Below, piece after piece: positions 2,631 to 61,266 of a stretch of DNA of 64,000 nucleotides; positions within the stretch are counted from its first letter, which is position 1; each line of letters starts with the position of its first letter. A program made the translations under genes and the position numbers. The notes under the pieces were generated by a model. The model ran no database searches and was not told the origin of the DNA. It saw only the letters and a program-made list of their open reading frames with translations. This stretch comes from Liolophura sinensis (Eukaryota > Mollusca > Polyplacophora > Chitonida > Chitonidae): positions 14,379,386 to 14,443,385 of the forward strand of contig NC_088306.1 in assembly GCF_032854445.1 (NCBI RefSeq), written 5' to 3'.

Positions 2631-2704
2631 TATTTATAGCAGCTGCAACCTGACGGGCCCACTTTTTCCCCAAAGGCGTTCATCATCTTTCTTTCTTGTC
2701 TCAG
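2631..2704 (+). promoter_or_regulatory. Putative promoter and noncoding first exon of gene A
   Basis: A TATA-like tatttatagc lies at 2631-2640 and a strong donor, tcag|gtaagt, at 2704/2705. The box-to-donor distance of about 71 nt matches the 73-82 nt seen in the four paralogues. The first exon would be roughly 40-45 nt. The assignment is by analogy; no transcript evidence is available. Confidence 0.5.
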
Positions 2705-3544
2705 GTAAGTCTCTGAACTTCAGTCTAGGGGCCGTATCTTCATCGTGTTTATTTAGATGGCCACGTTGTATATATGAACAGAGCAACTGAGATACATATT
2801 TTATTATAAAAATTTATAGAATAGAATATTCCTTACGTCTTTCCAGCGTCATTGAAAACTGTTTCTCTTGGCGTATTTTATATATCAGGGGTAGTGTGTG
2901 AGGCACAACACGTACAGTGCCAGCGCAGCGAAAAGTTATCAAGTGTACTAGAGAGTCCACACAGCTACTGCTTTGGTGGGGTCACTCCTTTGTATAACGT
3001 CTTATTCAAAGCATTTATAGCCATTAATGGAGTCCAAAATAAATTTGTTTGTTTCTTGACATTATGTAGTAGTCTTCCCACTGCTACAGTGGTCACGCCA
3101 AGCTATTTATCAGTAGCTAGGCAATACATGTACCCTTTCTGACCATTAGATACAGCTCTATGCAGATACACGCTTTATAGCTATTAGGCACATAAGGCAG
3201 TATTCAAAACAGTTTGTACTATTTATATAATATAGAGTAGAAATAATTGCATGGTATTACAGAGTAGGCACAAATTTCTTTTGTCTCACAGGCGTCAGGT
3301 CGTGCTGCTATGAAGCAATTGATAAAACTGTAATTCATTGTCACTTCGTTCTGTTTCGAAGTAGGATGAAACTGTTTCTACCTTAGAGAGTCATGTTATT
3401 CTACTCGCTTGTAAGCCAAACAAATCTTCTCCTTTAGATATGCATAGCTGGGCTTAACCCCACTGCCGCATTGGTGTACCGCCAAGCTATTTCATAGCCT
3501 CAGGGCTACCACGCTACCATACTGTCAACTATCAGTTAAGTGTG

Positions 3545-4052
3545 TTCAGTATGTTTTGCCGAAGTGCGACACCCGTTATATAAACTGCAATCGACTTTAA
3601 TCTAAACCCTGTTTCGGACGTTGCCATATTTGACATTATTCGCACCTTTTTGGTGTAATATAACCTTCTTAAATGAATAATGTTTTATATCTTGTAGTAC
3701 ATGATCTCACAGCAGGATGGTTCTGGGGTTGTACGTGAAGAAATTTCTTTATAAAAACAATGTAGTTTGTTGTCCGAGGCAGTGGTGTAAGCTGTGTTAC
3801 TGCTTGGAGTTTGTTCTAACCGCATATTGGTGCAGCCATTGTAAACCAAATTACTCTGCACTCCCATTGTGCAACGTGCCAAGTGCTGAAAAAGTATCCT
3901 AACAGTATTTGTCTTGTATAAATATAAACGTACAGCAGATCAAAGAGCAAAGCTTGTATTGTTACGTGCCACTGATTATAGACAAGTTTGCTATGACTGA
4001 TTTTACAGATAGCTGAATATAGGCGACTGGCTAAAAGAAATAGGCTATAAAT
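3545..4052 (+). repeat. Dispersed repeat DR2
   Basis: About 500 bp shared with 8395-8945 and 55365-56085: ataaactgcaatcgacttta, gttgttctaaccgcatattg-like strings and the end gctgaatataggcgactggc. Noncoding. Located in intron 1 of gene A. Confidence 0.78.
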
Positions 4053-4066
4053 TGCTACTATTCAAG

Positions 4067-4181
4067 TATTTATTTATTTTCATTTGATTGGTGTTGTACG
4101 TGTTTAGTTAGAGTTTACGCCGTACTCGCACGAATATTTCACTTATACACCACCGGCCAGATTTATGGCGGGAGGAAACTG
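4067..4181 (-). mobile_element. SINE family 1, 5'-truncated, with internal insertion
   Basis: Only the 3' domain remains. An extra block of roughly 25 bp (tgtacgtgtttagttagagt) splits the gtgttttacgccg motif. Lies in intron 1 of gene A. Confidence 0.8.
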
Positions 4182-4445
4182 TTTAAGCATTTAAAAGAAA
4201 AATCCTCATGAAATCTTAAGTTAAAGTGACAAGAGGGGGTACTTACCGTTTCCGTGTGCTATTTGCCATTGATCACATTGTTGTTGCTGCTCTGGTTTAC
4301 TCTGTAGGCTGTAAATCTTTTATTATATTATTGTTTTTCACCGCGGGTTGCATTTATGAAATACGTGTGCGTTGCAGCTTGTGACGGTACATCGATGATT
4401 TTTTTCCTGTTTTCTTGTTTTGCTTGAATTTACAGAAAGAGAAAA

Positions 4446-6793
4446 ATGAAGGCTCCGTTGTTTATTGGCATTTTTGTGTGCCTTGTCAGTCTCACTTCAT
4501 CCACATGTATGGCCGGTATGTTACTGCATTTGTAAATTACTTTTACATTTACTTTAAATTATAAACCGTAAGTGGAAAGGCCTGTCAGCAGCTTTCAAAT
4601 GGTCACGCGTTCCTCCAGGCTATGCCCGGTTTCCCCCCACCATAATGCTGGCGGCCGTCGTATAAGTGAAATATTCTTGAGTACAGCCTAAAACACCAGT
4701 CAAATAATAAAGAAAAATCAAATAAATTTAAATGCCCGTATTTAATTTAGGGGCAAAGCATCGATTATATATCAACAGTACAGTTTATTTGGTAGAGGTC
4801 GGTCAGCATACAGATGATATCATATGTTAACTAAACAGTGCACACCTCCTCCACAACTAGAGGTAAAAATTCCCACACTACAAACAAAGGAACGATATCA
4901 TAGATTTCCATTATATATGTGAAGTCCATACAATGATTTAAATATTCCGCGATTAGGATCCTCGCCACAATTAGACGAAACGGAAATGAAATTCAATTCA
5001 GTTTTACCAATATCCCTGCAACTCGTTTCTCGTAAAGTTTGAAAAGATGGGCGGACTCACGGGCAGGCGGACAGACGGTGACAAAAGCATAACCGACTTT
5101 AGGAAGGCATATTGTGATGGCGACATTATATTGGCTACTCTCGGTTTGATATCACATGTCTAGTTAATTATGCACACAACATGAAGACATCCCCAGCCTT
5201 TCTTGTGTTTTTGTCCGTTCTGAGCTTTAAAATTTTCCAGAAGAACGTTGGATGTCAATTAAAACCACCACCACAAGGGTTTGTCTCGGAAATTTTTCGT
5301 CGTCTCTAAATGACGAGGAATCTTTTGTCCACGACCAGTCACCAGATATGACAAACACAACTGGTGGTCAGTATTGAATCTTTCAGGAAACTATTTGTTT
5401 ATCCGTCTGTTTCCTAGCTACTATACGGAAACAGTTATGCAGGGATTTGTGTGCCGTTTGTGTGGCGGAAACTTACGCTCTTGGCATGTAGACTAATTTT
5501 CGATTACTGACTGCTGTTTGGGGTGGGTTTTGAGGCATTTCTGAGCATTCATCTGATTTGTTTTGAGCTTTGCACAGTATAGAGAAATATGTGGGCATAG
5601 TCCCAAATCATGCCAACAAAAGTTTATTCAGTTTGTGATCCTCGATAACCTGCTCTTGCAATCGTGCAAACATTATGAACGATATGTTCGCGCTGCAATT
5701 CATAGTATCAGCTTTCATCTCTTAATCTCTCACCAGGTCCAGAGTCCTCGTGCATGGAGGGGTGGAACGTCGTTTGTAGCCGACCATTGGCCGACTTTAC
5801 CGTCAAGAAAGCCAAAAGATTCTGTAAGAAAATGCGGAACGGGCAGGTAGTCAAAGGACAGTGTGTAATAGGTAAATTCAGGTCATAAGTGGTTAAAAAT
5901 GAATTTACATAAGATTCATTTGCGGAGTTCAAAGACATTTGAACCCAATTTACCCTAACATACGGACCCCATAATTCTGATTATGTTTTCTAATTTTTTC
6001 CATGGTCAGAGAGAATATGAGACAATATTGTTCAATTCAATAATCTATATATTAAAAATATATAAACAGAAAAACTGGTGTAGCGTACCTTCATTTGTTT
6101 TTGATTAGTTTTGTTGCATTCGGCTACATAATTTGTTGTCACAGCAGTTCCAGCAGCCACAAGCCATAATGTGGTCGTAAGCTCGAATCCAGCTCTCGCT
6201 GGTTCAGCTGTTTTCGGATCAAGAAGTTTGTGAGGTACCTGGCGAATTATGGTGATTGACTCCAGGCAATTCGATATGCTCTGATGATAATCATACTATT
6301 GTCATATAAGAGGAAAGAATCTGTATTACGCTGTAAAGCCTCGATGATATAGGTAAATTTCTTAGCATCTTTTCAAACCTATCCGAGGGATATTTGTACC
6401 CGTTACGGACTAACCTGCCATACATTACAATAACCTAAGCGGATGGGGAGATTTATATAGTACATTAACATATACACGGACCAATTTCGATAAATGTTAC
6501 CATTAAATTGCGCGTTACCAAACACATTTAGTGTCGTAATTCAAATCTTCTTAACTATATTTGAGATTTCTTGTCAGGGCGTAATTCACAGTTTCCTCTA
6601 TCACATATGTTTTCCTTTATGTCTTCTGCTACACCTATACCTCCAGTCCTGATTAATGTTATACTTCAACTTGTTTTATCTCCGACTTATTTCCTTTGCT
6701 AAAACTCTACATATTTTGAACGTTTTCCTGTTAACTTTTTCAGCGGGTGGATTGGGTGTAAACACGAACGCATGTTGTACGCTTGGGAAGTAA
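4446..6793 (+). CDS. Secreted six-cysteine peptide, gene A (3 coding exons)
   Basis: Coding exons are 4446-4515, 5737-5871 and 6744-6793, joined by GT-AG phase-1 introns; the product is 84 residues. A noncoding exon probably ends at 2704 (donor tcag|gtaagt), and the signal exon starts at 4436 after ttacag. The first 23 residues are a hydrophobic signal peptide starting MKAPLFIGIF. The mature part has six cysteines: C-x7-C-x15-C-x12-C-x12-CC-x2-GK-stop. It contains CMEGWNVVCSRP and ends NACCTLGK. Net charge of the mature part is about +7 by hand count. AATAAA at 6939 is a likely poly(A) signal. The protein should be exported and disulfide-bonded. The family is not recognised; an antimicrobial, venom-like or signalling peptide are all possible. 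The gene model is strong because four paralogues share it; function is unknown. Confidence 0.82.
4572..4730 (+). mobile_element. SINE family 1, 3' half
   Basis: Begins in the middle of the body and runs through cataatgctggcggccgtcg to an A-rich tail. It lies in the second intron of gene A. Confidence 0.85.
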
Positions 6794-7439: not shown

Positions 7440-7645
7440 AGCACTTTTCTAATTCATAATGCTAAAGTATTGAAGCTGCATTTCCCTTGCAATTGTATAG
7501 ACTTACAACGTAACAATGTGTAGTGCTTGTGGTGTTACGTGTCTCTAACGAAAGACAATTTTTGTTGCGAGTATGACCGATTTTACAAACATCTGAATAT
7601 AGGCGACTGACTAAAAGAAAAAGACTATAGTGTGTACATCAAATC
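7440..7645 (+). repeat. Dispersed repeat DR2, 3' part
   Basis: Ends with gaatataggcgactgactaa like the fuller copies. The surrounding 6960-8170 has no gene that I can support. Confidence 0.68.
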
Positions 7646-8945: not shown

Positions 8946-8949
8946 TACA

Positions 8950-9349: not shown

Positions 9350-9614
9350 TTTATTTATTTATTGATCGGGGCTTTACGCCGTACTCAAGAATATTTCACT
9401 TATACGACGGCGGCCAGCATTATGGTGGGAGGAAACCGGGCAGAGTCCGGGGGAAACACACGACCATCCGCAGGTTGCTGGAAGACCTTCCCACTTACGG
9501 CCGGAGAGGAAGCCAACATGAGCTGGACTTGAACTCACAGCAACCGCATTGGTGAGAGACTCCTGGGTCATTACGCTGTGCTAACGTGCTAAACAGCTGA
9601 GCCACGGAGGTCCC
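9350..9614 (-). mobile_element. SINE family 1, full length
   Basis: Complete from the ttatttattt tail to the head ctgagccacggagg. Close to the family consensus. Confidence 0.92.
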
Positions 9615-10134
9615 CTCATAACTGATGTTTAGTGTTTCTCGAAAATGCCACTTCATAGTTTCCGAGTTTATGAATGATGGGCTTGCCTGTTCCCGCGGTT
9701 CTCAGGGAACAAGAAATAGTTTCAATTCAGGCTCATAAAATGTCTTTTCTTGCAGAGCCATACGTAAAAGAGGCATGCGAATGGCTTGTACCTATCTCGC
9801 CTTGTATATTTATTTGTACAACGGTGATTATTTCGTCGTTTGAGCTCCTTCTGCGTATGAAGTGCGGGTTTCTCAACCGTAAAATTATAAAAAATAAATC
9901 ATTCTAGCACACGTCATATGTGATATGTATCATAACTGGTTAAGTGTATAAATGAAATGTTGAAGAAGTGGCTTGTACACAGATTGATTCATTTATAGCA
10001 ATATAAAGATAGTTATGTCTTTCCACTATATCCTTGGTGTTTGCACCGCACTTTTACCGTGAAATAACATGTGCCCGTGTTGCACATTTACTGGGCGAGA
10101 TAAGAAAGTTATTTACTTATTACATGCTTCCCTA

Positions 10135-12643: not shown

Positions 12644-13687
12644 TCACCTGTACCAATACACTTCCTCGTCATCTTCTATAACACGTGTTCGTAGATATTT
12701 CCAAAATAAACGAAAAAATGACGGTAGAATTGGAGCTGGATTAACTCGTAGAAGATGTGGATAGCTTTTTTTGAATGCTAGAGTAGCTTCCTCCAAATGA
12801 TAGTGGGGCAATTTGGGAAAGAGATGATGGAGATGGTGCGTGCCCACGTTGTGAATTATTCCGTGAAACCAGCCATAGTGCCGGTCCACTGTTGATAACT
12901 GTCCTTGCACGTAATTCCATTTTTCGTGAGATACCCAGGGGATATCATCGTCTGCGTGCTGAAGGAATGTGATGACTAAACCCCACAGGAGGTGTGCTAT
13001 GAGCGGAAGGACGAAGTGGAGTAGTAAAGAATCCCAACCGTAGTGCACCGCGTACTGATACAAAATGGCGGCCCAGAGAGCATCCAACATTAATGATACA
13101 ACGCTTTCAATCCGGCGTCCTCCATCTACATAGGTATGGATAAGATCGTCATATGAACGAACAGATCTTGGCCCGGAGTCCACGGCCAAGTATGCAGTCC
13201 AAAGTAGACTGTTTTCTGGTTGCCAAAGAATTTCCCTTTTTCTAAGCGGGAAAAACAATTCGTCTTTGTCTATGTTGCAAGTGTTTTTGTGGTGGACCCG
13301 ATGTGAGTACTTCCAACAGCTGTAAGGCATTAGGAGAGCAGTGTGTAACACACCGCCAACTACGTCGTTGAGAAGCTTGTGCCTGGAGAAAGATCCGTGG
13401 GAACAGTCGTGCCCTATGATGAACAGAGCGACGAAGAACGTACCCTTGAGAAACGCATAAACGGGAGCGACAGCATACACAATGTACCATGGCAGGGAAA
13501 CGCGCATCCACTCGAAAGTCAGGTGAAGAGAGGCAACAGCGGCCAAATCCCGAAAAACGTAATACATGGACGTCGACACTTCTGGCTCGAAGCAATGTTT
13601 CGGGATGACTTTTTTTATGTCAACCATAGTGGGGAAAGTCGCTTGTGTCTTTCCATTCACTTTCTCCTGCACCTTTGACGCATCCAT
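12644..13687 (-). CDS. Methyl-end (omega-3/omega-6 type) fatty acid desaturase
   Basis: A 347-residue membrane di-iron desaturase encoded by one uninterrupted coding exon. The three histidine boxes are HDCSH at residues 93-97, HRVHH at 129-133 and HHLHH at 284-288, and HHLFPKLPHYHLEEA is typical of delta-12/omega-3 enzymes. Hydrophobic segments lie before box 1, between boxes 2 and 3 (about 196-242), and near residue 320. There is no N-terminal cytochrome b5 domain, which separates it from front-end desaturases. Such enzymes insert double bases' counterpart, a double bond toward the methyl end of acyl chains, in the ER membrane, allowing PUFA synthesis from monounsaturated precursors. A likely acceptor, tgcttacag, sits 15 nt upstream of the ATG, so a noncoding first exon is likely. 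Regioselectivity (delta-12 or omega-3) cannot be decided from the sequence by eye. Confidence 0.93.
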   Translation of the reverse strand: MDASKVQEKVNGKTQATFPTMVDIKKVIPKHCFEPEVSTSMYYVFRDLAAVASLHLTFEWMRVSLPWYIVYAVAPVYAFLKGTFFVALFIIGHDCSHGSFSRHKLLNDVVGGVLHTALLMPYSCWKYSHRVHHKNTCNIDKDELFFPLRKREILWQPENSLLWTAYLAVDSGPRSVRSYDDLIHTYVDGGRRIESVVSLMLDALWAAILYQYAVHYGWDSLLLHFVLPLIAHLLWGLVITFLQHADDDIPWVSHEKWNYVQGQLSTVDRHYGWFHGIIHNVGTHHLHHLFPKLPHYHLEEATLAFKKSYPHLLRVNPAPILPSFFRLFWKYLRTRVIEDDEEVYWYR

Positions 13688-24852: not shown

Positions 24853-25102
24853 TGGGGCCTCCGTGATCGAGGTGGTTAGCGTACCAGCACGGCGCAATGA
24901 CCCAGATGTCCCTCACCAATGCAGTCTCTGTGAATTGTGTCCAGTTCATACAGTCTTCCTCTACGGCTGTACATGGGAAGGCCTGGCAACAACCTGCGGA
25001 TGGTCGTGGTTCTCCGCCGGGCTCTGCCCGGTTTCCGCTCACCATAATGCTGTTATATAAATGAAATATTGTTGAGTACGGTGTAAAACACAATCAAATA
25101 AA
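24853..25102 (+). mobile_element. SINE family 1, near full length
   Basis: Head ggggcctccgtgatcgaggt is present. The copy lies in the first intron of gene B. Confidence 0.88.
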
Positions 25103-25592
25103 AGCATAAGTACATATAAATCATAAGGTCCTTGTTGACTTATTGGTCACGGATTGAAGCGCTGGATGTGTAATCGTCAGTCAATTGACCAATGAAGCAG
25201 TCTGTTAATTGATTCGTCAGGAAGATAGTCAGGTAACAAAACCAGAGTCAATTCTGGAAAGTAAAGCTTTTCCTTGGCACGACACCAACGTCGTTTACGC
25301 GTAAAATGCTTGTGTATTGATTTAACCTCTTCTTTGTTTTGCCAGTGTTAGCACATTAGAAAGAATCAAGTTACACGCCCGATTAAACAGGTTGTATCAC
25401 TATAGGGGGCTTAATAAACTTGTCTCGTAAAGCATTTTAACCTAGACGAGCTTGGTTAAATTTTAACCATCTGCAAAGCTGCAACTGTTTGAACAGGCGA
25501 TACCAGTAACGGGGAATGAATTAAATTAAATTAAAGCTTTTTAACCTCGTGTAAAATTTTTAACGTTTTACCTTCTTTCGCAGTGTGCAAAG

Positions 25593-28500
25593 ATGCGCTC
25601 CTTGTTCGTTGTCGGTCTTTTGGCCTCGGTCCTTGTCTTTGCAATGACACAGGGTAAGTAAATATCAATTCTGCCTAAGTAACGATTTGAGTAAATTCAG
25701 AGAGTAATATACAAAGATATGCCTGGACCGAGCTGGTTTCTAATCTTGACCTAAGCGGCCTAATTGCACCCATTTCATCAAGTGTCGGTCTATATGTAGA
25801 GCAGTTATTGCACGGAAACCAACGACCTTTCAAGATCAGTGAGATCAAAATACTCAAAACTCATGCATGGATGGAGCTCGTTTTCGAACACGATCTAATG
25901 TTGCTTTGTTCTGGAAGGAAGCTAAACGTTTCGAAATTTCGAAAATGTCTTCGAAAAACTGACCCCGGAACTGTTTATCGACACTCCAGACTTGTGTTGT
26001 GTTCTGCAGGATCTACCGTTCTCATAGACTGCACATTACGCAAGCGCCCACAATTTCGGTCACCTAACAAATGTTCACGTTTAAACTGTTCTTAACAGAT
26101 TTAACTCTTCTCCTGTAGACTTCCGCCATTTGTGTCTCCAGCCAGAGCAAACTCAACAATGTCAGTGCATGTCAGTTAATGTGGCTTAGGCATGTTTGCT
26201 TGATGATTTTAGTGCGATTGTAGGCGCCTTCTAGTGATCACCATCTTTTCAGTAACTTCCACATCCATCTGTCTCGCTTCTTTCGCAGCATTTTACATAA
26301 TCTACGGATAACAACTGGAAATCCTAACCTGCTCACCAGATGATATGTAGAACACGTTACTTTTCTGTACTAAACCATTGCAATCCTTAGCAATGGTGGG
26401 AAGCTCCGTCAGCAACCTGCGGCTGGTCGTGGGTTTCCCCCGAGCTTTGACCGGTTTCCTCCCACTTGGCCACCGTAGGACAAGTGAAATAATCTTCAGT
26501 GGGGCACACAAACACAAATCAAATAAACAAATAAATAAATAGCAACATACCTTGAATTAGTGATTCGAGGGGAATCGAATCTGTCTCTTTCGAAGTGCCC
26601 GCCTACTCGCCGATGGTGGTATTTATCCAATACTGGCAGATTTACGAAGTGGTTGTCAACGTTTCACCAATCGCATGCGCTTGTAGAAAATAGCGGGCGG
26701 GATTTAACGGCGCCCGATGCGGAATCTGTAGGTTGTTTGTATATTGCAATGGTTCCGTGTACAGAAGGCACCCGGATCCCGATCTAGATCCACTGCTGTG
26801 CGGGGTAAGGAAATCATGTCCGAAAAAAGTCCATCACTGATACAGCTTGAGAGACTCTCGTAGGTTAAGTAAGCTAGGGCGATCTTTGCCCTGCCTTATA
26901 ACTGCTGAGCGCTGAGGTAATATACTTGAACCAGCTCTCTATGGCTTCACTGCAGCATTAAATCATGCGGTTTTTGAAGAATCTCAGGAAGAGTAGTGTT
27001 TTAGCCCTTTTTCTCCCGATACATAAACCTGTCTTTTATTACATGTACATGGGAATGTAATTCGTGAGCTCGACACCCAATGAGTAGTGGTGGAGCTAAT
27101 AATTGTATCCATGCAAATAAATCATTGTTTATTCTTTCTTATCTTTTAAGCAGCTAACCATAATTTACTTGTTTCACCAAATTTGTTATTCAGTCTTTCA
27201 ACCGTGTTGTTGTTGTTGTTTTATGCTTAGATTGTCCTGAGGGATGGGAGACTAAATGTTCGAGAGACATGAAGCAATTCACCAAGAAAGATGCCAAAGG
27301 TTTTTGTAAATCTCTACAAGGCAAATATAAGAAAGGCATATGCTATATCTGTAAGTCAGTAAATCGTCTCATATCTTAAAAGTATCTCACAGTGCTGGCT
27401 GGCGTCGTATAAATGAAATATTCTTGAGTACGCTGTAAAACACCAAATACATATAGCGATTCTATAGACATTTATCTACTGAAGACAAAACATTTTCATC
27501 CAGATAGATTCAAAATGTAAACCGATGCATAAATGTTTCCGTTATTATATATTTCCCTGCCGTTTAACGGCCTTCTCAAACATTTTCCACTTCGGATACG
27601 GCAGACAGGTTTTGGGCTATAGAGGAAACCAGTGTGCCTGGCGTAATCACATACGATACAACATAAAAATAGTATATATAACTGTGGGACAGATAGGAGA
27701 AACGCAGTCAACAGTTTTCAATCATGCAGGAAAGACAGTTCATATTATAGGTATCACATCCAATTAAAATTCGTAGCCGGTGAGTAATTTAAATGTCGAA
27801 CATAAATATTGGTATCTCTTTTGCGCGTTCATTATAACTTAAAATAACAAAACCAAGTTTATGAAGAAAACACAAATGCTTACAACCCCCAAGTCTCCGG
27901 TTATAGGCGGAATTGCACACAACTGTGACACAGATGGCCAGAGATCCTGTATGCTGTGTCAATATTTGCCAACAAAAGGGTTGTACTCACTGTAAAATGT
28001 ACTCAATGTAAAATTTACTTTCCTTAAAAATGTTGTTTTGTACTTTTTTTTTGGTGTTCGCCAAAACTCATCAATATTTTTGAATCGTCTGCGCATTCTG
28101 ATTAACGCTGGTTGAAGACCAAAATGCTATGCACGTATATCTGTGTGTCAGATGTCGGAAACACCCAGGGTAAACCTGATTTAAGTAGATGTGTTTATAC
28201 TGCATTGTCTTCGCAATAATATAGACATCCAACATATTCGTGTGTAGAACTTATGTTATGACGAGTGAATGACGAAAGGCAATTTTTGGTTATATGTATG
28301 ACTAATTTTGCCGAGAGCGGAATATAGGTGACAAATTACTACACACTATGGAGTATTTATCGCACTGGAAACCGCTTCTTTTCACCAGAATCTGTATTAA
28401 CTTTTTATGCTTTCTTAGCTTTTTGGAGATATGTCTTGAACGTCTCCCTAAGTGCCGCTCCCTAAATTATATCTCTGCCACTGTCAGACAAGTTTGACCT

Positions 28501-32820: not shown

Positions 32821-33099
32821 GCGGCCGCCATTGTTGATTCATGAGTTTGTGGATCGCCTTGTGGATAAGTTAGGGGATCGTTTTGAGCAGAGTTCTAATA
32901 GACTTGATCAGGAAGTTAAACGGGAGATTGTACGCCTCCCCTCTCCCCAATCTACCCCACTGACTACTGCCAGTGCCTGTTTTGGCGCCCCCCCCCCCTA
33001 CCCCCTTCCACTGAAACAGTCCGTGGTGTCCACGATCGGACTAGCGTGTTCACTAGGGGGGTGTTTACTAAGGGAGTGTAGGTTTAAGAGATAGCGGCT

Positions 33100-34501: not shown

Positions 34502-35720
34502 CTGGCCAGTGCTCTTCGCCAATTGTTAATTGACTTTCAGGATGTGTTTTTTCAGTATGGTTTTGATTTGGATTGTTTTAGTGGTTTAAAGCACGCTACA
34601 GAGACAGGGGAGGCCCGTCAGTTTAGGCAACGCATGCGTAGAACACCGTCAGGGTTTGAACTAGAGGAACAGCGGCATCTTGCGGCTGTGTGAAGCTGGT
34701 GTCATTCGGCTTATTTGAGGGTATTTTGATTATCGGCGGTTAAATTCGGTGACTGTCAAGGATGCCTTTCCGTTGTCGCAGGTTGATGATTGTCTACTCT
34801 TGGTGGGCCTGAGTATTTTTCTACGTTGGATTTGGCCGCAGGATATTGGCAGACTGTGATCACGCCAGAGGATTGGTGTCAGACAGCATTTATCATTAAG
34901 TTCGGTTTGTATGATTTAGAATGTATTTCGGCCTCCGCAATACGCCAGTGACCTTTCAGCGGGTTATGAATCAGGTGTTGAGAGGGTTGACTTGGAAGGA
35001 GATTTTGGCCTATTTAGATGATGTTATGGTACTAGGTAAGACCTTTGAGGAAGCATTGGCTAACCTCCGAGTTGTGCTTCAAAGAAGTTAGGGACAATGA
35101 CCTGAAGTTGAAACCCAGAAAGTGTGAACTGTTTAAAAAGGAAGTAAATGTTTGGGCAGAAATGTGAGCTCAAAAGGGTTAAGTGTAGCTGACGGCAACC
35201 TCGAGGTTATGGCCAAGTGGTCTGTACCGCAGTATAGGAGGGCTGTAGAATCGTTCCTGGAGTTTATGAATTATCATAAAGGAATTCTTTTCAGGCTTAG
35301 GTCAGTAGGCTAAGCCGTTGTATGCATCGACTGGGCCTAAGGCTATGATTATGTGGGGATTAGAAGAGCAGGAAGGTTTTGAGACCCGTCAGGATTTTTG
35401 TTGTCCACACCAGTCTTGGCCTTTCCCACTGCCGACGATATGTTTATTCTGGATACCGATGCCTCTGCCACGGGAAATGGGGCGGAGCTGACACAGGTTT
35501 AGGATGGTAAGGAACCCAGCTCAATGTAAGTATTGTACCACCCGTAGAGAGCTGTAAGGGGTAGTCCGGTTTACTAGGGAGTATAGGCACTATTTGTTGA
35601 GTCGACCGTTTTTGATCTGGATGGATCATAACAGTCTGGTGTGGTTGACCAGATGTGTAAAGGTTAATGAGACCTGGGGTCGGTTTGACCTAGATATAGA
35701 TGACGTCATCCCGATAACGG
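34502..35720 (+). pseudogene. gypsy reverse transcriptase / RNase H remnant
   Basis: RT fragments in several frames include DFQDVFFQYGFDLDCF, RQRMRRTPSGFE, TFQRVMNQVLRGLTWKE and the catalytic YLDDVMV (35011-35031). LKLKPRKCELFKKEV follows the palm. RNase H shows ILDTDASATGNG (near 35446) and WMDHNSLVWLTR (near 35618). Stops and frame changes occur throughout, and part of the fingers/palm is degraded. Nonfunctional. Confidence 0.85.
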
Positions 35721-36194
35721 TTAAAGACCGATCGTGTCAAATGGCTAGTAGAATAGTGGCTGGGGGTGTGACCCCCGAGCCCAGTAGTCTGGAATTGGCT
35801 AACGCAGCCGGGGATCCGGAGGGCAACGGTCTCACTAATGAGAATACGGCGGTTGGCCAGGGAGATAGTGTACTAGAGGACCCGCCACATAGTCTTTTAG
35901 ATTGTACCCTAGGCATAGAGACTTCGGGAGAAATTTCATCCCATGTAAAAGGTAACCCCATGGAAGGTGAAGAGGGGTTTCAGTTAGTACCAGAGGAACT
36001 GGGGTACGTTAGTGCCGCCCAATTGGCGGATCCAGATCTAGTGCCTGTTTTGCGATCGGTGAGTGATGGAGTAGAGCCTGAACGGGTGCATTTGAGTAAT
36101 AAGGTAACTAATCATCTATGGCAATGTAGGTCGCCGTAATTAGTGAAAGATGGTGTCCTGATGTAAGAGTGGGACTATGGGTCGTATAGAGGAG

Positions 36195-42225: not shown

Positions 42226-42558
42226 CTAGGGTATGTGTGGTTCGTACTGTGAATAGGGTATGTGTGGTTCGTACTGTGAATAGGGTTTGTGTGGTTCGTA
42301 CTGTGAATAGGGTGTGTGTGGCTCGTACTGTGAATAGGGTATGTGTGGTTCGTACTGTGAATAGGGTTTGTGTGGTTCGTACTGAGAATAGGGTATGCGT
42401 GGTTCGTACTGAGAATAGGGTATGTGTGGTTCGTACTGTGAATAGGGTATGTGTGGTTCGTACTGTGAATAGGGTATGTGTGGCTCGTATTGTGAATAGG
42501 GCATGTGTGGTTCGTACTGAGAATAGGGTATGTGTGGTTCGTACTGTGAATCGGACAT
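42226..42558 (-). CDS. Repetitive protein with 12 nine-residue SQYEPHIPY repeats
   Basis: A 110-codon ORF starts MSDSQYEPHIPY and is a run of twelve nine-residue units made by a 27-bp minisatellite. In this frame most unit-to-unit changes are silent: TCA/TCT three times, GAA/GAG twice, CAG/CAA once. Four of the five replacements hit the isoleucine position (K twice, T, M) and one changes H to R. In the other frames the same changes alter residues. This suggests selection on a Tyr/Pro-rich protein. There is no signal peptide, the start context is weak and splicing is unresolved, so the real protein may have other exons. Alternatives are a noncoding minisatellite with a lucky frame. The product is not recognised. 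Confidence 0.45.
   Translation of the reverse strand: MSDSQYEPHIPYSQYEPHMPYSQYEPHIPYSQYEPHIPYSQYEPHIPYSQYEPRIPYSQYEPHKPYSQYEPHIPYSQYEPHTPYSQYEPHKPYSQYEPHIPYSQYEPHIP
42229..42552. repeat. 27-bp minisatellite, 12 units
   Basis: The plus-strand unit is agggtatgtgtggttcgtac followed by tgtgaat. All twelve copies keep the 27-bp length, a multiple of three, with only scattered substitutions and no indels. Confidence 0.95.
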
Positions 42559-43707: not shown

Positions 43708-43790
43708 GATAAATAGTGGACACACACTGACCATCGACACACTACACCTGTTGTCCAGTCTACCAGAGTGACCAGTGCCTCAAACCTCCA
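43708..43790 (+). promoter_or_regulatory. Putative promoter and noncoding first exon of gene C
   Basis: gataaatag at 43708-43716 acts as a TATA-like box, and the donor cctcca|gtaagt is at 43790/43791, 82 nt downstream. The first intron to the signal exon is only 265 nt, the shortest in the family. Confidence 0.5.
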
Positions 43791-44067
43791 GTAAGTATAT
43801 GCCTGTGCGTAGATTTGAGATCTGTTTAATTCTTTCTGGCTTAACTTCTAGAAATACAAGTCTGTACTTCTCGATTCATTAACATGGAACTCGGTCTTTT
43901 CGAATGTTCTGTTCTCAAACACACTAAAGCTGCACTAGTACAAACACGTATTTCATTTAATCCTGCAGTAATTATGACTATATGGCTGCCTTCATCTTGC
44001 ACTACTCTCTCCCTTAATGCTGAGCACCCACTTATTTCACATAAACTTTTTTCAGGTCAATTTAAAG

Positions 44068-45837
44068 ATGCATTCACCTACTCTGCTTGTGTTGCTTGCT
44101 TGTCTTTTGGGAGTCGCGGTTTGTCAGACGGGTAAGTTTTGTAACACGTGACCAATCACATACGGCTGTAGCAAAACTGCAGTATATCACAGAATCTGTG
44201 AAGTATCCACTCCACAAAATTTTCAGGCAGCACAAAAAGTCGTTCAAACAAATACATATATATATTGGATTCCTAGATACTGTATAACATTTTAACGAAC
44301 AGTAGTTTCATTATTCTGGAGCAATAGACGTGACTTCTGTGTGTTACGCTTCACCTGTAGTCACATTGTGGCATTCAGTTGTCTGGTAGATTTCCTGCCT
44401 GGAACAATTTTAATATGCACCATCAGAGCTTTGTTGTCGCCTTGAAAATAAAAGATCAAGTAAATTTAAGGTAAATCTGTAGACAGGTGGTTAAGGGTTG
44501 GATGGGTATTCTTGGTTTATAATAATAATCTTAAATGTCCAATATTATCAACCTTTACCAAAATGTGCAAAGAAAAGTTTGCAAAATCAGAGCGGTAATC
44601 TACGCGAAAAATGTTCAAAAGTCTTGCCAGGAAACAAAGGTCATCTTTTTGGGCTGTGTAAGCGTTAAGGATTTGTAGGAATAAATATTTTGAGTTATTC
44701 AGGTAGAGTAGCTTGAACAAAACACTGAATCTGGACAAGCGGATATATATTACGCGCCTGGCAAGACTCACAAAAGTGTCCTCAGTAGAGATAGGGGTAA
44801 ACGTTACAGACACAATATATATAATATGGGTGTATACTAACAATCAAGAAAATCATAACAACGGCTTAAACCTATAAAACGTGTGCTATTGCAGATGTCT
44901 GGCAATGAAAACTGGTTGCATCCTGAACTCATTGCCAGACATCTACAAAAGACCTAATTCAACAGGCTGCCCTAGATATTACTCACTGACTGTTAGTATA
45001 CAAACATATACTGTGTCTCTAACTCTCTGTCTGCATTTTCTGTTGAAGACACTTTGGTGAATGTCGCAACGTAAGAAATCGTTAAGGATTTGGTTCATGA
45101 CCTATTTATTAGGAAACAAAAGAAACCAGATCTACTGACTGGCTCAGTAACAATACATAACAGTACAACAGACATAGACGATGAAATTAAATCGGACAAA
45201 TTGTTAAAAATGTAGACTGTCGATGAGTTTACAAAAAATATAATAATGATGACAAAAATAATAGCTGGTCTGTATTGGTGTGAGTCTTGTTTGTTCCTCT
45301 CCAGAGTCTCCCGCTGAGGTATGTCCAGAAGGCTGGAACATTACCTGCACTCGACCTCTGTCAGAATTTACCGAGGTGAAAAGGCCCAGGAAATTCTGTA
45401 AATCCATCGGTTACATCGCGAACGGCCTCTGTCACACAGGTATCCGTTTACTGTTGTTTTCCTGGCGTAGATCGCAAAAAGTGTTGCTTCCTTTCAGTTA
45501 TGGAAACAATGTAGCTTTGCAGGAAATTAATGAAAGTCCTAGTATCTCAAGGGTACAGGTGATAATCTTCGCATATATAACGTCATTTTAAACAATTCAT
45601 TTCGTGAAGATCCAGTAGAAACCACACATTTTTACATTCCTTCCTTCAAAACTAGTTTTTATTCATTAATTACATTCATGTATTTATTGTTGAGCCATTA
45701 TAAATGCGTACTTCATGTAATTACATATAATACTTTAACATTTGACAAATTTTATTTGATAGTTTTGTTTTCTGTTTGTTGTTTCAGTGTCCGGGGATCT
45801 TGTCACCCCTAACGGTTGTTGTGAATATGGGAAGTAG
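44068..45837 (+). CDS. Secreted six-cysteine peptide, gene C (3 coding exons)
   Basis: Coding exons are 44068-44131, 45305-45439 and 45788-45837, phase-1 introns, 82 residues. The signal exon begins at 44056 after ttttttcag and encodes MHSPTLLVLLACLLGVAVCQ. The cysteine pattern is C-x7-C-x16-C-x10-C-x12-CC-x2-GK. The central block KFCKSIGYIANGLCHT is identical in gene D and nearly so in E; the end is NGCCEYGK. The mature charge is near zero, unlike A and B. AATAAA occurs at 45992 and 46044. The third intron contains a perfect 16-bp hairpin at 44893-44944. Secretion and three disulfides are inferred; no named family is recognised. Confidence 0.86.
44893..44944 (+). repeat. Perfect 16-bp hairpin in gene C intron
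   Basis: AGATGTCTGGCAATGA at 44893-44908 and its exact complement TCATTGCCAGACATCT at 44929-44944 enclose a 20-nt loop. The stem does not extend outward well. Confidence 0.85.
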
Positions 45838-51673: not shown

Positions 51674-53683
51674 TTACTTCCCGTACTCACAGCATCCGTT
51701 GGGAGTGACAAGCTGGCCTGACGCTGGAACAAGACAAAAGGAGATCAAGTTTATAGTCATAAAACATCTAAAGACCGTGAATGAGTAATGTATTTAATTC
51801 ATTGGTGTTTAACGTTATACTGAAGAGTTTTCTCTTGTAAATGATGGCGATTAGTATTATAGGTGAAAGAGACAGGAAAGACCGGACAAAACCACCGACC
51901 AATGAGTAGTTACTTATGAACATTCCCACATGTGGCTTACAGATATACACATAATATTGGTGAAAGATTTATTTGTTTGGTGTTTTACGCCATACTCAAG
52001 AATATTTCACTTATACAATGGTGACCAGCATTATGGCGGGAGGAAACCGTGTAAAGCCCGGACCAAACCCACGATCATCCGCAGGGTGCTGGTAAGCCTT
52101 CCCACGAACAGCCGGAGAGGAAGCATGAATTGGGCTTGAACTCAGAGCAACCGCCTTGGTGAGAGTCTGCTGGGTCATTCCGCTGCGCTGGCGTGGTAAT
52201 TCCGTAGGCCACAGACGCCCCAATTATTGGTGAAAGAGATGTGGTCAAACGAAAGCCGGACTTTGCTAAAATGGCTGCACGAGCGTCTATGTCCGCCTAC
52301 TATCACCAAGGCCTAACTAACAAAGACGAGGGGAATCGACAAATTCCCTGTAATCTCACTTGTGTCTATCATCTTCACAGTTATGCATGCGATATGTGTG
52401 GTTGGTTTGAACATTAAACGAACAGCGCCTTAAGGAAGTTAACCTAGGTTTAGGCAGGAAATGGCATCCACAGAATATGTATGTCAGAGGGTACGTTTAC
52501 ACTACGTACAAATCTAGGCGTCGTAACACACATTCGTGTATCAGCTGTCAACCAGACATTCGCGGTTAATCATTTTCAAAATAACATTACCGCCAAAGAA
52601 CCGAAAAAAATTGTAAACAAGTATGGAGTCACTTTTAATAATTTAAAACTGCCAAAAGTTTTACAAGATGCCTGAAAGACGCAAGAAGTGTTTTAGTCTC
52701 ATACATCAGACAACTATAAAAGCAGAGTGCCTATGATTCTGGATACTCTGTTCATATTTACTTACAAATGAGATAGTTGTGCTTTTTGCGTGTCTAAAGA
52801 AATTTTGACTGAAATTTTTTATTTATTTGATTGGTATTTTACGCCGTAAGAATATTAAGAATATTTCACTTATACGACGGCGACCAGCATTATGGTGGAA
52901 GGAAACCCACGACCATCCGCAGGTTGCTGTAAGACCTTCCCACTTACGGCCGGAGAGGAAGCCATCATGAGCTGGACTTGAGCTCACAGCGATTGCATTG
53001 GTGAGAGGCTTCTGGGTCATTACTCTGCGCTAGCGCGCTAACCAACTGAGCCACGGAGGCCCCGGAGGTGCAAAGGAACACGGATGTGCCAGTATACTGT
53101 GTGTCATTAGGACGCCGTACACTGTACGTTATGCCCGTAACACCGATGTGACACTTAACATTTCATACCTGTCTGACACAAATACTACATCCTTGTTTGA
53201 AACAAAAACTAAATACCTGTGTGGCAGAGGTCGTTACCGATATAACCGATGGATTTACAGAACTTTCTTGGACGTTTCACTTCGGTGAATTCCGCCAGGG
53301 GCCGTGTACAGGTGACACTCCAACCCTCAGGGCACGTGCTGGAAGACTCTAAATAAGTAAACGTTACAGCCGTTTATCGTATTACAAAAGGACTAGAAAT
53401 CAGTTTTAGTAGTTTAACTGATGAGACAAAATAGAAGTTCAAGAGAAGACGATGTACCATATAAACAAATGAGGAAAAGACGGCATTTTCAGATGTTTAT
53501 TTTATAATTGAAATGAAATTTTATCTAAACATCCATAAGATACATTATTTAGCCTTGTTTTATTTAAGTAAAAAATAATTTAGGCTGTTGACTAAGAGCT
53601 CACGTATAAAGGTGCTTACCAGTTTGACAAAAGATCACGCCCAGCAGGCCGGCACACAAAACAGCGATTGGCAGGAAATTCAT
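51674..53683 (-). CDS. Secreted six-cysteine peptide, gene E (3 coding exons)
   Basis: On the minus strand the coding exons are 53620-53683, 53217-53348 and 51674-51723, with phase-1 introns and an 81-residue product. The acceptor for the signal exon gives an exon start at 53695. The signal is MNFLPIAVLCAGLLGVIFCQ. The mature part has C-x7-C-x16-C-x10-C-x12-CC-x2-GK, with CPEGWSVTCTRPL and NGCCEYGK. TTTATT at 51582-51587 is AATAAA on the coding strand and a likely poly(A) signal. The last intron carries two family-1 SINEs (51968-52222 and 52817-53063). It is the closest relative of gene D: their last exons differ only at synonymous sites and the stop codon. The two genes are divergent. Confidence 0.87.
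51968..52222 (-). mobile_element. SINE family 1, full length
   Basis: Inserted in the last intron of gene E; small deletion before the B box. Confidence 0.88.
52817..53063 (-). mobile_element. SINE family 1, full length with body deletion
   Basis: Second SINE in the last intron of gene E. The ccgggcagagcccgg segment is deleted; head ctgagccacggaggcccc is perfect. Confidence 0.9.
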
Positions 53684-53868
53684 TGCAGTAGATTTCTGAA
53701 ATATAGGGCAACACGCGATCAAAACATTAACACCGCAAATGCAGTATTATTGTGCAGGTTTTCTTTATCTTCTGGAAGAGGGGTCTATCCATGGCTAGCT
53801 TTAAGGAAGAAAAAAGTACCGCAGAAGTGATCAACTTATTTCTGACATTGTCGACCATTCTTAATTAT

Positions 53869-54688: not shown

Positions 54689-54765
54689 GGTTGTTCGAAG
54701 TTGTCACTTTGCACAGTGGACTATAGGTCAGCAATGCCCGTGGTCAGTTCTGGTCCAGTATTTAA
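54689..54765 (-). promoter_or_regulatory. Putative promoter and noncoding first exon of gene E
   Basis: On the minus strand TTAAATA (54759-54765) is followed by a first exon ending at 54689, donor aacc|gtaagt, 76 nt from the box. The stretch around it, read on the minus strand, aligns with 57961-58085 on the plus strand (tttccggtcagtttgctt, then aaatactggacca). The promoter and first exon were therefore duplicated together with the gene. Confidence 0.58.
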
Positions 54766-56085: not shown

Positions 56086-56397
56086 GCACACGGCGTACAC
56101 TAAAACGTAGAATAAGCGACAACTGTACACTACAGAAGTGGTATTGTACAACTTAGGTCAGCATTTGAATATAGTGTAGCCAGGTATTCTGCTCCTTGAA
56201 ACAGAGTTGTTTTATTCCATAAATTGCCAACGTGTTATGTCTACCCTAACTATCGACTCTTTGCTCCAAGAATGTAATATCTGGACTGCGGCGTCTCGAC
56301 ACGGATTTTCAACACAACATGGACTCGTACAATACCACTCCATAATGTGCAAAACACTTCACAGTAACCTAATAATATAAGTTTCATGTAGCATGTA

Positions 56398-56760
56398 TAT
56401 AATTAAAGACGTACGGCATAGAGAGTAAAACCAGAGTAGCGACTACAGTGGGATAGCTGGCATATGGTCACACGATATAATTAAAGACGTACAGCATAGA
56501 GAGTAAAACCAGAGCAGCCGACTACAGTGTGGTAGCTGGTCAAATGGCCACACGATATAATTAAAGACGAACAGCATAGAGAATAACCCAGAATAGCGAC
56601 GGTAGTGTGATAGTTGGTAAATGGTCACACATAACCGGTGTAATACGGCCTCTAGTCAGTTTACCTCAGTTAGGGTTTTATTCTAACTGTTCATGTAAAT
56701 GCATAAATAGTTGCAAGTTACACGCCCCCTTGCCCCATGGCTGAAGCAGAATTAGGCAAT
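56398..56760 (+). repeat. DR1 module b, amplified as an 80-bp triplet
   Basis: ataattaaagacgtacggcat starts three successive units of about 80 bp (to about 56637), then the module continues to accatgg... A 109-codon frame starting at 56737 lies within and beyond it and is not credible as a gene. Confidence 0.8.
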
Positions 56761-58008: not shown

Positions 58009-58085
58009 TTAAATACTGGACCAGTACTGACCACAGGCATTGCTAAACCATAGACCACTGTGCAAACTGACAACTTCAAACAACA
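58009..58085 (+). promoter_or_regulatory. Putative promoter and noncoding first exon of gene D
   Basis: TTAAATA at 58009-58015 precedes a first exon ending at 58085, donor aaca|gtaagt, 76 nt downstream. Box, exon and donor are the inverted counterpart of gene E's promoter. The first intron runs to 60077 and carries a family-2 SINE. Confidence 0.58.
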
Positions 58086-59269
58086 GTAAGTATTTTTTTA
58101 TTTATTTTATTGCCGTTTTACTAATAACTTCACTTTTCACTTAAAGGAGTAGAAAATCTACCATTGAAAAGAGTATGCATTTCCTAGCAGGTGCATGCCA
58201 TAAAAAATGCTAATATGTACCTCAAGTTGATAAATTATAAATAAAGTCAGCGCCAAAATCCTCTGTGGGCGACTCCATTTTGCCTAAGAACTAGTCCTGA
58301 AGTCTTCTGTGTTAGGAGGAGAATTGCCGTCGGAAACCTCCTCCGAAGTGCACTTGGTATATTTCTGGTAGAAATCTTCGATGGACTCAGCGATTTATTC
58401 CAGCTGTGCGGTTTCAGACTTTACGTGTATGGCGAAAATCGAAAAAAGTATGCAGCTGGCACCAACAGATAGAAAAAAATGTGCCTTTTTCAGCCTATAG
58501 TGTCATATTTTTAAATTTCTTCTTCTTAAACGATATGGATGGCGGAATTCACCACAAACAAGTTTTGCCACGCTCCCAACAAAATTTTCCTCTTTTGGCG
58601 TGCAGATTTGAACGCATTGAAGGGAGATAAGTGACCTGTACCAAACACATCCAATGGAACGTAATGCCACTATGTCAGTGAAAGCTTGGAAATTTAACAA
58701 TTCTCTCATGACTAGGATTGAATCCGCGTCCTGTTTCTTTCGTAGTTTGGGTCTTGCCTCCTTACGACGCAGTCACGTACCGTTAACACAGGTATCACAT
58801 ATCGAGGTAATCGGAGTCGTCTAGTTTGAAAACACATATTTATGGTTCTTCCTAAACGTCGTCAAACGTTTTGTACTGGGTATATTCTTGGTAGTTTACA
58901 TGTGATGCAAAACAAAGCCGTGACGTTTTACTACTCTAGCCAGGGTGGATTTCAGACTTAGCCATATTTATGCTAACATTGAAATGGAAATTCAGTACTG
59001 TGCATACGGGTCAAAGGATAGTTCGTTCTAATGTCCGGTGCTCAGGTAAAATTCCAGAATTGCTATAGGAAATGCTAGAGTGAGTATAGTACGAAGTGAA
59101 GAAGGACTTTGTACAAATGATTGACGATGTACTGAACCAATTATCTGTGGACAGATCAGAAACTAATTTCAGCGACAATGCAAGAGAAAGTTTGACAGTT
59201 ATTATAAAAGAACGCTTAATCGCTTAAACGTAACCTTTTTGTGAATCACGCAAAGATATTTAACATACA

Positions 59270-59470
59270 ACTTAAAAAGCTGTACAGAATAGAAAATCAG
59301 AGCAGCGACGACAGTGTGATAGCTGTGATAGCTGGCAAATGGTCACATGTAAGTGGTGAAACCCCAGTTAACTGTTCATTTCATTGCTTAATAGTGGCAA
59401 GTGACACGCCCCTAACACCATGTCTTACAAAGAATTATGTAAAAGAAATATGCAACGATGTTAAGTGCAA
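59270..59470 (+). repeat. Dispersed repeat DR1, module b
   Basis: gagcagcgacgacagtgtgatagct plus a tandem extra gtgatagct; ends near atgcaacgatg. In gene D's first intron. Confidence 0.68.
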
Positions 59471-59619
59471 CTGATGTTAATTGAAGTATATATTAGTCTA
59501 GAATTCGGTCAATACCGACGTAAGTCCGTTAATCAAAGAGCAAGTATGAGACCAAGCTTAAGTTGTGCCAGAAGCTAACTGATAAATAAGATAGAGGTAT
59601 TTCATTGCGTATTGTTAGG

Positions 59620-59934
59620 GTGAGTGAGTGCTTCGGTATTAACGTCGTACTCAACAATTTTTCAGTCATATGACGACGAAGGAATCCTTAGGGTGCATGT
59701 ACATGTAATGTGCCTCCTTGTTGCAGGAAGTATGTCCACCGCTCTTTTTATTTAGTTCAGATGCTTCACTGAGACGTCTTACCGAAGGCAAGTAAGCCGC
59801 CCCGGGGATACGAGTCAACTAGCCCCGTACGGGCCAAGCGAGGAAGTTACAACTTCTTTTAAAGTCTTAGGTGTGACTCGATCAAGGATTGATCCTGGAT
59901 TTACCGGTCCCGAACTGTGCTATCCGGGCCGGTA
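59620..59934 (-). mobile_element. SINE family 2, full length
   Basis: Same ends as the copy near 2 kb (gtgagtgagtgc tail, tgtgctatccggg head) with a different middle segment. It lies in the first intron of gene D. Confidence 0.8.
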
Positions 59935-60089
59935 TATAGTTAAGGTAGTTCGGAGAATATTGTCATCCTGCTGAAAGCGGTGATACTCGACTAACATCGC
60001 AATCGCTGTCCAAAACTGTTTCTAAGCGGGTACCCTGTCACTGTTAATGTTTCAACTGTGTATTACCTATGTTTCAGACATCTACCACA

Positions 60090-61266
60090 ATGAATTCCCT
60101 GACAATCGCTGTGTTGTTTGCCTGCCTGCTGGGCGTGGTCGTTTGCCAGACCGGTAAGCACCTGTGGAGATCGATGGTTTTAAATACGTTAGCTCAAGAT
60201 CGATATACCAATCTTCAGTCAACAGCCTTAATTTATGTTAACCTAGGTGCAAATTTATGTTAACCTAGGTGCAAATTATGTTAACCTAGGTGCAATTTTA
60301 TAAAATAGGAAAATTAGCTTACGATTTTATATCAACTATATAGGTAGCATTTGAAAACACCATATTTGCCCTGATCTGACAGTATGATAGTAGATTGTCT
60401 TCTTCTCTTTGATCTTTTTAACAAGTATAAATTATTTACCACTTCCATCTATAACTTCTATGCCATTCTTATCTAATGTGATAAACGATTATTTTAGACA
60501 CTCAAAGCTCTTGCCCCGAGGGGTGGAGCGTCACCTGTACTCGATCCCTGACGGAATTCACGGAAGTGAAAAGTCCGAGAAAATTCTGTAAATCCATCGG
60601 TTACATCGCTAACGGCCTCTGTCACACAGGTATGTACTGTAGTGTCTGTCTCGCACAACGATGCAATGTTTGTATCACACAGTGTTGCAAAAGGATGCAG
60701 TCTAAGTGACAAACCTGTACGCAGTGTTACGTAAAGTTACCTAGAAGTAGAAATATACTCACGGGTTTCAACCATGTCGGCAAGATGTAGTGGCCGATGC
60801 ATCAAATCCATCCAGCGTCGGGTTTGAACCTGCACCCTGTGTGTTCCAGCGATTAAAGACAAGCGCCTATAACAAAGGCCAACTCCCAACCTCAAGAATA
60901 TGTGATAGACGTATACGCACCTAGAGTTAATCTCATGGCAATCCTTGGTTAGGTAAAATTTTACTTGCATAAGGTTGTATATGTTTTGTATTTAGAATGT
61001 CACTGATAATATAAGTTCGCCAGGAACTCGCCAGATGTCGGTGGTTTTCTCCAGCACTACTCCGCCCATTAAATCGACTATAATGGTGGGAGTTAAATAT
61101 ACTCTTGTAAGTTGTTAAAAAAACAGGCAAATAAATAAGTAAATCCATGACATTTGAATCGTTCAATACTTTATAACTGAAACTTTTCTAATAAAGTTCT
61201 TTTTTTTTTCTTTCAGCTTCAGGCCAGCTTGTTACTCCAAATGGATGCTGCGAGTATGGAAAATAG
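60090..61266 (+). CDS. Secreted six-cysteine peptide, gene D (3 coding exons)
   Basis: Coding exons are 60090-60153, 60498-60629 and 61217-61266, phase-1 introns, 81 residues. The signal exon follows atgtttcag at 60077; the ATG at 60090 aligns with the starts of C and E. The signal is MNSLTIAVLFACLLGVVVCQ. The mature part reads C-x7-C-x16-C-x10-C-x12-CC-x2-GK, with CPEGWSVTCTRSL and NGCCEYGK. A 22-bp triplicated repeat sits in the second intron (60233-60295). The nearest AATAAA downstream, 61552, is inside a SINE fragment. Net charge is about +1. Secretion is well supported by the signal exon; role unknown. Confidence 0.87.
60233..60295. repeat. 22-bp tandem triplication in gene D intron
   Basis: atgttaacctaggtgcaaat occurs three times in a row, nearly identical. 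Confidence 0.93.

Follow-up and report, generated by a model that had tools for sequence, protein, structure and literature searches.

A family of six-cysteine, secreted-type peptide genes in the chiton Liolophura sinensis and its possible role in host defence

A 64,000-nucleotide stretch of the genome of the chiton Liolophura sinensis (contig C12, NC_088306.1, positions 14379386-14443385; the whole stretch is called the window below) holds five genes, here named A to E, for short six-cysteine peptides of predicted secreted type. Together with relatives elsewhere in the genome they form a new family of an ordinary kind, matching no peptide family found. The explanation that we favour, with somewhat less than even confidence, is that these are defensin-like host-defence peptides: secreted, amidated and with a trans-type disulfide geometry, marked by two adjacent (vicinal) cysteines.

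This explanation is supported by five open genes with the cysteine order C-C-C-C-CC, a phase-1 intron layout and an invariant C-terminal Gly. It is also supported by the cationic nature of A and B, and by two AlphaFold runs that both put Cys4 and the CC pair in the two last strands. Finally, the copies are clustered, duplicated and decayed, as is common in families of defence peptides. With its exact splice junctions and two clusters, the family lends itself directly to studies of expression and structure and to mass spectrometry.

Gene models and the wider family

A six-frame scan of the window gave five exons with the motif C-x-EGW and five exons ending in CCxxGK-stop, which pair into five genes. 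The spliced models are open precursors of 84 (A, plus strand), 76 (B, plus), 82 (C, plus), 81 (D, minus) and 81 (E, plus) residues. Each gene has three coding exons, one for the signal, one for Cys1-Cys4 and one for Cys5-Cys6, and the coding introns of all five are GT-AG and both of phase 1. The cysteine spacing is 7-15-12-12-0 in A, 7-15-11-12-0 in B and 7-16-10-12-0 in C, D and E. Thus the signal exon, cysteine spacing, intron phases and EGW start that the sequence-only reading had described as common to five loci were all found, by scan and spliced models, at the loci it named. The coding exons are:

4436-4515, plus strand: signal-peptide exon of gene A (ATG 4446); spliced model, same residues in RefSeq protein
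5737-5871, plus strand: Cys1-Cys4 exon of gene A; scan, spliced model, RefSeq protein
6744-6793, plus strand: exon CC-TL-GK-stop of gene A; scan, spliced model, RefSeq protein
25584-25653, plus strand: signal-peptide exon of gene B (ATG 25593); spliced model
27231-27350, plus strand: Cys1-Cys4 exon of gene B; spliced model, and the relative P0002
29285-29334, plus strand: exon CC-YV-GK-stop of gene B; scan, spliced model
44056-44131, plus strand: signal-peptide exon of gene C (ATG 44068); spliced model
45305-45439, plus strand: Cys1-Cys4 exon of gene C; scan, spliced model
45788-45837, plus strand: exon CC-EY-GK-stop of gene C; scan, spliced model
53620-53695, minus strand: signal-peptide exon of gene D (ATG 53683); spliced model
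53217-53348, minus strand: Cys1-Cys4 exon of gene D; scan, spliced model
51674-51723, minus strand: exon CC-EY-GK-stop of gene D; scan, spliced model
60078-60153, plus strand: signal-peptide exon of gene E (ATG 60090); spliced model
60498-60629, plus strand: Cys1-Cys4 exon of gene E; scan, spliced model
61217-61266, plus strand: exon CC-EY-GK-stop of gene E; scan, spliced model

In 100 windows simulated with a first-order Markov model, the full pattern of exon 3 (Cys1-Cys4) occurs 0.0 times per window and that of exon 4 (Cys5-Cys6) 0.01 times, compared with five observed of each; a looser exon-3 spacing without EGW occurs 0.23 times. Signal peptides in the family were judged by eye. The A-E peptides are predicted, or judged in this way, to be of secreted type; from the assumed cleavage of the signal to Cys1 there are 3-8 residues.

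The whole genome (609,464,459 bases) was searched with gene E as the only query, so that the family count is a lower bound. There are 15 exon matches: six in the window genes, five in degenerate copies and four in a second cluster on contig C9. Four of the degenerate copies, of the C/D/E type, lie on contig C12 at about 21.03-21.28 Mb; three of these have stops inside the matched stretch, and in alignments all four have a stop and have lost Cys2. They sit in recently duplicated segments whose likeness is for the most part 95-98% and in some pieces 88-93%; one pair of segments measures about 10 kb end to end. The fifth degenerate copy, at 9.55 Mb on C12, has a signal exon and a GK exon, while its exon 3 is split between frames.

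The cluster on C9 (21.744-21.761 Mb) consists of four copies, G1 to G4, all with the spacing 7-15-12-11-0, and a signal exon was found in three. G2 and G4 (minus strand, 78 residues each, ending CC-IA-G-stop) are near-identical recent duplicates. G3 (plus strand, 78 residues) ends in CC-KF-GR-stop; G1 (plus strand) ends in CC-EF-GR-stop, no signal exon was found for it, and it may be a dead gene. No further copy was found at E <= 0.05 within 20 kb on either side of the window or 50 kb on either side of the C9 cluster, and inside the window none of the tblastn matches listed was better than E 0.56. Prokaryote and viral contigs gave 8 and 28 pattern matches, among which no relative was confirmed. 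A family of five, as first proposed, is therefore right for the window but too small for the genome, since the C9 cluster and the degenerate copies lie outside it.

In all nine modelled copies (A-E and G1-G4) the six cysteines, a Trp four residues after Cys1, a Phe-Thr pair, a Lys after Cys3, a Gly, an Asn two residues before CC and the terminal Gly are invariant. In a tree of the nine no branch is well supported by the standard of the tool; the group C+D+E is found at 85/96.

The precursors end in GK (five copies), GR (two) or a bare G (two). To establish the bare-G ends the DNA itself was read; the GK/GR pattern of the scan for degenerate copies played no part in this. In the amidation pathway a carboxypeptidase trims the end of the peptide and the exposed Gly is then turned into an amide by peptidylglycine amidation. 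Judging from these ends the mature peptides are probably amidated, since the Gly is invariant and the next basic residue is Lys, Arg or absent. A structural role of the Lys is disfavoured, as it would not give this variation.

Gene A is already present in RefSeq: the uncharacterised L. sinensis protein LOC135479726 (P0001) holds all its 84 residues and 35 more upstream. It is the same gene, with an added N-terminal piece that comes mostly from two upstream exons. When a profile of the five sequences was compared with 5.8 billion proteins, 2 entries among 365 candidates had E <= 10: P0001 and P0002. As single queries, gene B found P0002 alone and gene E nothing; no protein entry was found for B, C, D or E, with C and D searched by profile only. 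This search needs shared five-residue words and similar length, and distant relatives can be missed. P0002 is an open frame of 106 residues that spans the Cys1-Cys4 exon of B, with 32 of 40 residues identical. The likeness extends a little into both flanking introns, and P0002 is therefore taken as genomic sequence of a near relative. The sequence-only reading held that annotation misses these genes; this stands for B to E but not for A. With four of five window genes lacking a protein entry in our searches, short multi-exon peptides evidently slip through annotation.

The published L. sinensis assembly is given as about 609 Mb in PMC11068029, and its species name was later corrected from L. 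japonica to L. sinensis (PMC12441733). Public RNA-seq of the species covers digestive gland, foot, gill, gonad and heart (PMC11068029). Among the papers listed in our literature searches we recognised no description of this six-cysteine family, and little appears to have been written on immunity or peptide signalling in chitons. The only chiton defence peptide seen there is a big-defensin transcript in Chiton olivaceus, reported in PMC7203481.

Comparison with known peptide families

A strong match of a profile hidden Markov model to a described family, which would have refuted the sequence-only reading, was not found: Pfam and the Protein Data Bank (PDB), searched with the nine members, and NCBIfam, searched with the window genes only, gave nothing significant. 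HMMER filters drop most Pfam matches above E 0.1. Apart from a plant defensin row in Pfam (see below), the other Pfam rows were under the cut-off where one was shown and were rejected: Glyco_hydro_4 (two members, E 0.0091), Ground-like (one member, E 0.064) and three weaker ones. NCBIfam listed the Shiga B subunit in three rows for a single member (E 0.03-0.084), which we put down to chance. Gene B without its signal gave 15 PDB rows, all of glutathione peroxidase types (best E 0.42), which were rejected as well.

In the PDB the five-member profile gave 8 rows; the top one, at E 0.013, was a C-type-lectin-like chain from a snake, aligned with the part from signal to Cys3. With the nine-member profile there were 5 rows, 4 of them lectins, with a best E of 0.15, and with the same profile without the signal none at E <= 10. 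The N-terminal part of the C-type lectin domain resembles the chiton peptides, below threshold, in the CP-x-GW motif, in three cysteines in order and in a helix before the third. The chiton peptides differ, however, in length and in their CC end. Given these E values, the loss of all matches without the signal and the absence of any Pfam lectin row, membership in this family was rejected.

The closest likeness in cysteine order is to beta-defensins and other trans-defensins. According to PMC9138766, a vicinal cysteine pair in the last strand, which sends two disulfides in opposite directions, is the mark of trans-defensins. Most big defensin genes, according to PMC7203481, consist of three exons, of which the second and third hold the coding part, and have a phase-1 intron before the cysteine-rich region; C-terminal amidation is among the modifications named there. 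The chiton peptides share with beta- and trans-defensins, as far as these two sources describe them, the C-C-C-C-CC order, the vicinal Cys5-Cys6 and the phase-1 intron between signal and cysteine-rich region (PMC7203481, PMC9138766). The vicinal pair among six cysteines is found in all nine modelled copies, and the phase-1 intron at the 5' edge of the cysteine-rich region in all eight with a signal exon. However, the chiton loops are far longer (7-15/16-10/11/12-11/12-0) than those of beta-defensins (about 6-4-9-6-0). The chiton genes also have another intron of phase 1, which lies between Cys4 and Cys5, and the peptides differ further in a predicted helix between Cys2 and Cys3 and in the lack of a profile match.

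With big defensins the chiton genes share the secreted type, a six-cysteine C-terminal region with CC, a coding start in exon 2 and, as we infer here, amidation; in contrast, the peptides lack a hydrophobic N-terminal domain in the mature part, given the 3-8 residues before Cys1 in A-E, and show by eye no dibasic pro-site before the cysteine region. Membership in either the beta-defensins or the big defensins was rejected: Pfam lists neither family for any of the nine members, with or without signal, and the spacing differs. The predicted strand-helix-strand-strand order is like that of CS-alpha-beta (cis) defensins and of the mytilins and myticins of mussels, and mytilin genes, like the chiton genes, have four exons, as described in PMC7168163. 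The mytilin array, however, has eight cysteines in that source (PMC7168163), compared with six here. By cysteine spacing the peptides have neither a C-x3-C in the helix nor a C-x-C in the last strand, and CS-alpha-beta membership was rejected. The sequence-only reading had seen no fit to beta-defensins, big defensins or CS-alpha-beta peptides, and both spacing and Pfam profiles bear it out. As the tests of profile, spacing and hydrophobic domain fail, we do not file the chiton genes as defensins.

Structure prediction was done for P0001, with a five-row alignment and as a single sequence, giving a predicted local distance difference test score (pLDDT) of 49.5 and 53.8, respectively. In both weak models there is a first strand (68-70 or 70-73), then a helix (81-90), and at the end two strands (100-103 or 101-104, and 112-116 or 112-115). 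Cys3 (88) falls close to where the helix stops; the second last strand contains Cys4 (101), and the last one Cys5-Cys6 (114, 115). The position of CC is the same in both models, yet pLDDT is low and the number of strands differs, and the order of strands and helix in the cysteine domain is a lead, not a result. VIA-align of the first model gave nothing significant; two structure-search rows for brazzein (E 4.8 and 6.2) were noise.

Possible functions and rival explanations

If the family does act in host defence, a short precursor would be secreted and folded by three disulfides between its six cysteines, of which the last two are adjacent; by analogy the likeliest pairing would be 1-5, 2-4 and 3-6, as in beta- and big defensins, while that of alpha-defensins is 1-6, 2-4 and 3-5. 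A carboxypeptidase would strip the last Lys or Arg where present, and the amidating enzyme would convert the exposed Gly to an amide on CC-x-x, which would leave mature window peptides of about 56-61 residues. These would act on microbes in mucus or blood, and antimicrobial action is what we infer for the family. The cationic A (about +7) and B (about +5) might act on microbial surfaces, and the near-neutral C, D and E on another target.

To assess selection we compared nonsynonymous (dN) and synonymous (dS) change. The cysteine domains of D and E are separated by 18 synonymous changes (37.7 sites) and 5 nonsynonymous ones (127.3 sites), which gives a dN/dS of 0.05 (bootstrap 0.01-0.15, 995 of 1000 replicates finite). 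For C and E dN/dS is 0.03 (0.01-0.10, 601 finite), and for C and D dS is saturated, with 9 nonsynonymous changes in 127.3 sites. The synonymous excess among the three is significant (Fisher p 1.1e-9 to 8e-16, from rounded counts). A and B are far from the other members (dN about 0.4-0.6, dS saturated). In the C9 cluster the constraint is weaker: dS is 0.41 and dN 0.17 for G2/G3, and 0.06 and 0.08 for G1/G3. The net charge, if amidated, would be +7 for A, +5 for B, 0 for C and +1 for D and E.

Several of these observations weigh against a defence role. The cysteine domain of C, D and E is tightly constrained, as the two dN/dS values indicate, and nonsynonymous change per site is 4.7-5.3 times faster before Cys1 than in it (p 6e-4 to 6e-6); in fast-evolving defence and venom peptides the pattern is the reverse. 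A charge of 0 to +1 in C, D and E, and of -1 to +2 in the C9 cysteine domains, is unusual for a membrane-active peptide. Pfam lists no animal defensin family for any of the nine members, with or without signal. Its only defensin-named row, the plant family AtDEF-like, was rejected: it was seen for gene B at 17.1 bits, under the cut-off of 25 (E 0.0069), and was gone without the signal. Further, a phase-1 intron following the signal exon is a frequent feature of secreted proteins in general. The first P0001 model contains one strand more, at 94-97, and a Foldseek search with either P0001 model, both of poor pLDDT, had no hit at E <= 0.001.

Near-neutral charge and tight constraint in C, D and E keep a receptor ligand as a serious rival, to which we give about one chance in four. 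Here the peptides would be amidated signals (a hormone, a cytokine-like factor or a chemosensory ligand) binding a specific receptor, which would explain the tight conservation of the mature part, and the invariant C-terminal Gly fits as well. However, nine copies in two clusters, in addition to the degenerate ones, are more than expected for a single ligand; A and B are widely diverged, the constraint on C9 is weaker and Pfam names no neuropeptide family. A structural or inhibitory peptide, such as a protease inhibitor or a component of mucus, egg coat, shell or radula matrix, is unlikely. It would suit a secreted-type, cysteine-rich and conserved peptide in an animal whose body relies on mucus and mineralised plates, but the spacing is unlike that of Kunitz, Kazal and WAP domains, none of which Pfam lists, and the amidation-type end would have no clear use. 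Slightly less likely still, the family may have a defensin-like scaffold of its own, chiton-restricted as far as seen, in which a cis-like strand-helix-strand-strand order is combined with a vicinal CC that forces trans geometry, amidated and strongly constrained. If so, the cis and trans layouts would not be the only solutions found by animals. Lineage-restricted new families of cysteine-rich peptides are common in molluscs.

The remaining explanations have little to recommend them. It is very improbable that the Cys1-Cys3 part (CP-x-GW ... C ... A-x-x-FC) is a remnant of a C-type lectin domain, descended from the strand and helix with which that domain begins. Lectin types make up 4 of 5 sub-threshold PDB rows for the nine-member profile and 3 of 8 for the five-member one, with aligned cysteines and with predicted strand and helix in step, yet the likeness weakened as members were added, vanished from the PDB without the signal, and is matched by no Pfam lectin family in any member, with or without signal. 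A venom or toxin peptide, the last in rank of the antimicrobial, signalling and venom roles, is more doubtful again. The peptides are small and cysteine-rich, with an amidation-type end and clustered copies, but in C, D and E conservation is higher in the mature domain than in the signal, the opposite of the usual pattern in toxins. Chitons are not known to have a venom apparatus, and among the matches listed no paper on chiton venom appeared by title, which is a weak test. Least credible of all, the loci could be chance open frames or dead copies, as some relatives plainly are broken; against this stand the two exon patterns (0.0 and 0.01 expected, five and five observed), the synonymous excess in C, D and E, the RefSeq model of gene A with the same residues and the relative of B's exon in another source (P0002).

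Upstream exons and other features of the window

A core promoter motif, AAATANTGGACNNNNACTGACCA, is present at three places in the window, once each before C, D and E, where 0.10 are expected. In the alignment it is followed at all three by a noncoding exon and a donor site, and this common arrangement supports an upstream first exon in these genes. For gene A such an exon is supported by the RefSeq model, though it is read there as coding; for gene B none was located.

2640-2705, plus strand: upstream exon of gene A, read here as noncoding first exon; RefSeq residues 11-32 map at 100%
43711-43790, plus strand: core promoter motif (43711-43733) and noncoding exon 1 of gene C, to donor at 43791; motif, alignment
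54689-54763, minus strand: core promoter motif (54741-54763) and noncoding exon 1 of gene D, to donor; motif, alignment
58011-58085, plus strand: core promoter motif (58011-58033) and noncoding exon 1 of gene E, to donor; motif, alignment

RefSeq residues 1-10 of gene A map to 1397-1426 at 100%, and RefSeq joins this stretch to 2640-2705 as coding sequence, taking TATTTATAG at 2631-2639, just 5' of the upstream exon, as acceptor. To us TATTTATAG looks like a TATA element rather than an acceptor. We think that translation starts at the signal-peptide ATG at 4446 and that the N-terminal piece in RefSeq is a misprediction of the start site. D and E are head to head, with promoters about 3.2 kb apart and directed away from each other. 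Sites of the kB, GATA, C/EBP and TATA types were also looked for upstream of A, C, D and E, and the matches found were scattered.

A 78-bp tandem repeat of three copies (56397-56630) lies about 1.4 kb upstream of the promoter of gene E; near gene A, at about 4177-4328, there is a stretch that it matches too. A repeat of about 200 bp, resembling a short interspersed element, is found in many places and in both orientations (e.g. 981-1233, 9361-9615, 24854-25102 and 53063-52815), and gene D has it in its second coding intron.

The peptide genes had been called the main host genes of the window. This is fair but incomplete, as there is also an intact, intronless gene at 12644-13687 (minus strand) for a fatty-acid desaturase of 347 residues (Pfam FA_desaturase, E 9.4e-23), which we take to be of the methyl-end (omega-x) type known in molluscs. 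The region 32001-36000, presumably a decayed retroelement, has a guanine plus cytosine (GC) fraction of 0.48 and a GC skew of 0.23, compared with about 0.38-0.41 and near 0 elsewhere in the window; three open frames tested there had no Pfam match. At 42227-42551 there is a 27-bp minisatellite with 12 copies at 93%, in which several frames are open on both strands.

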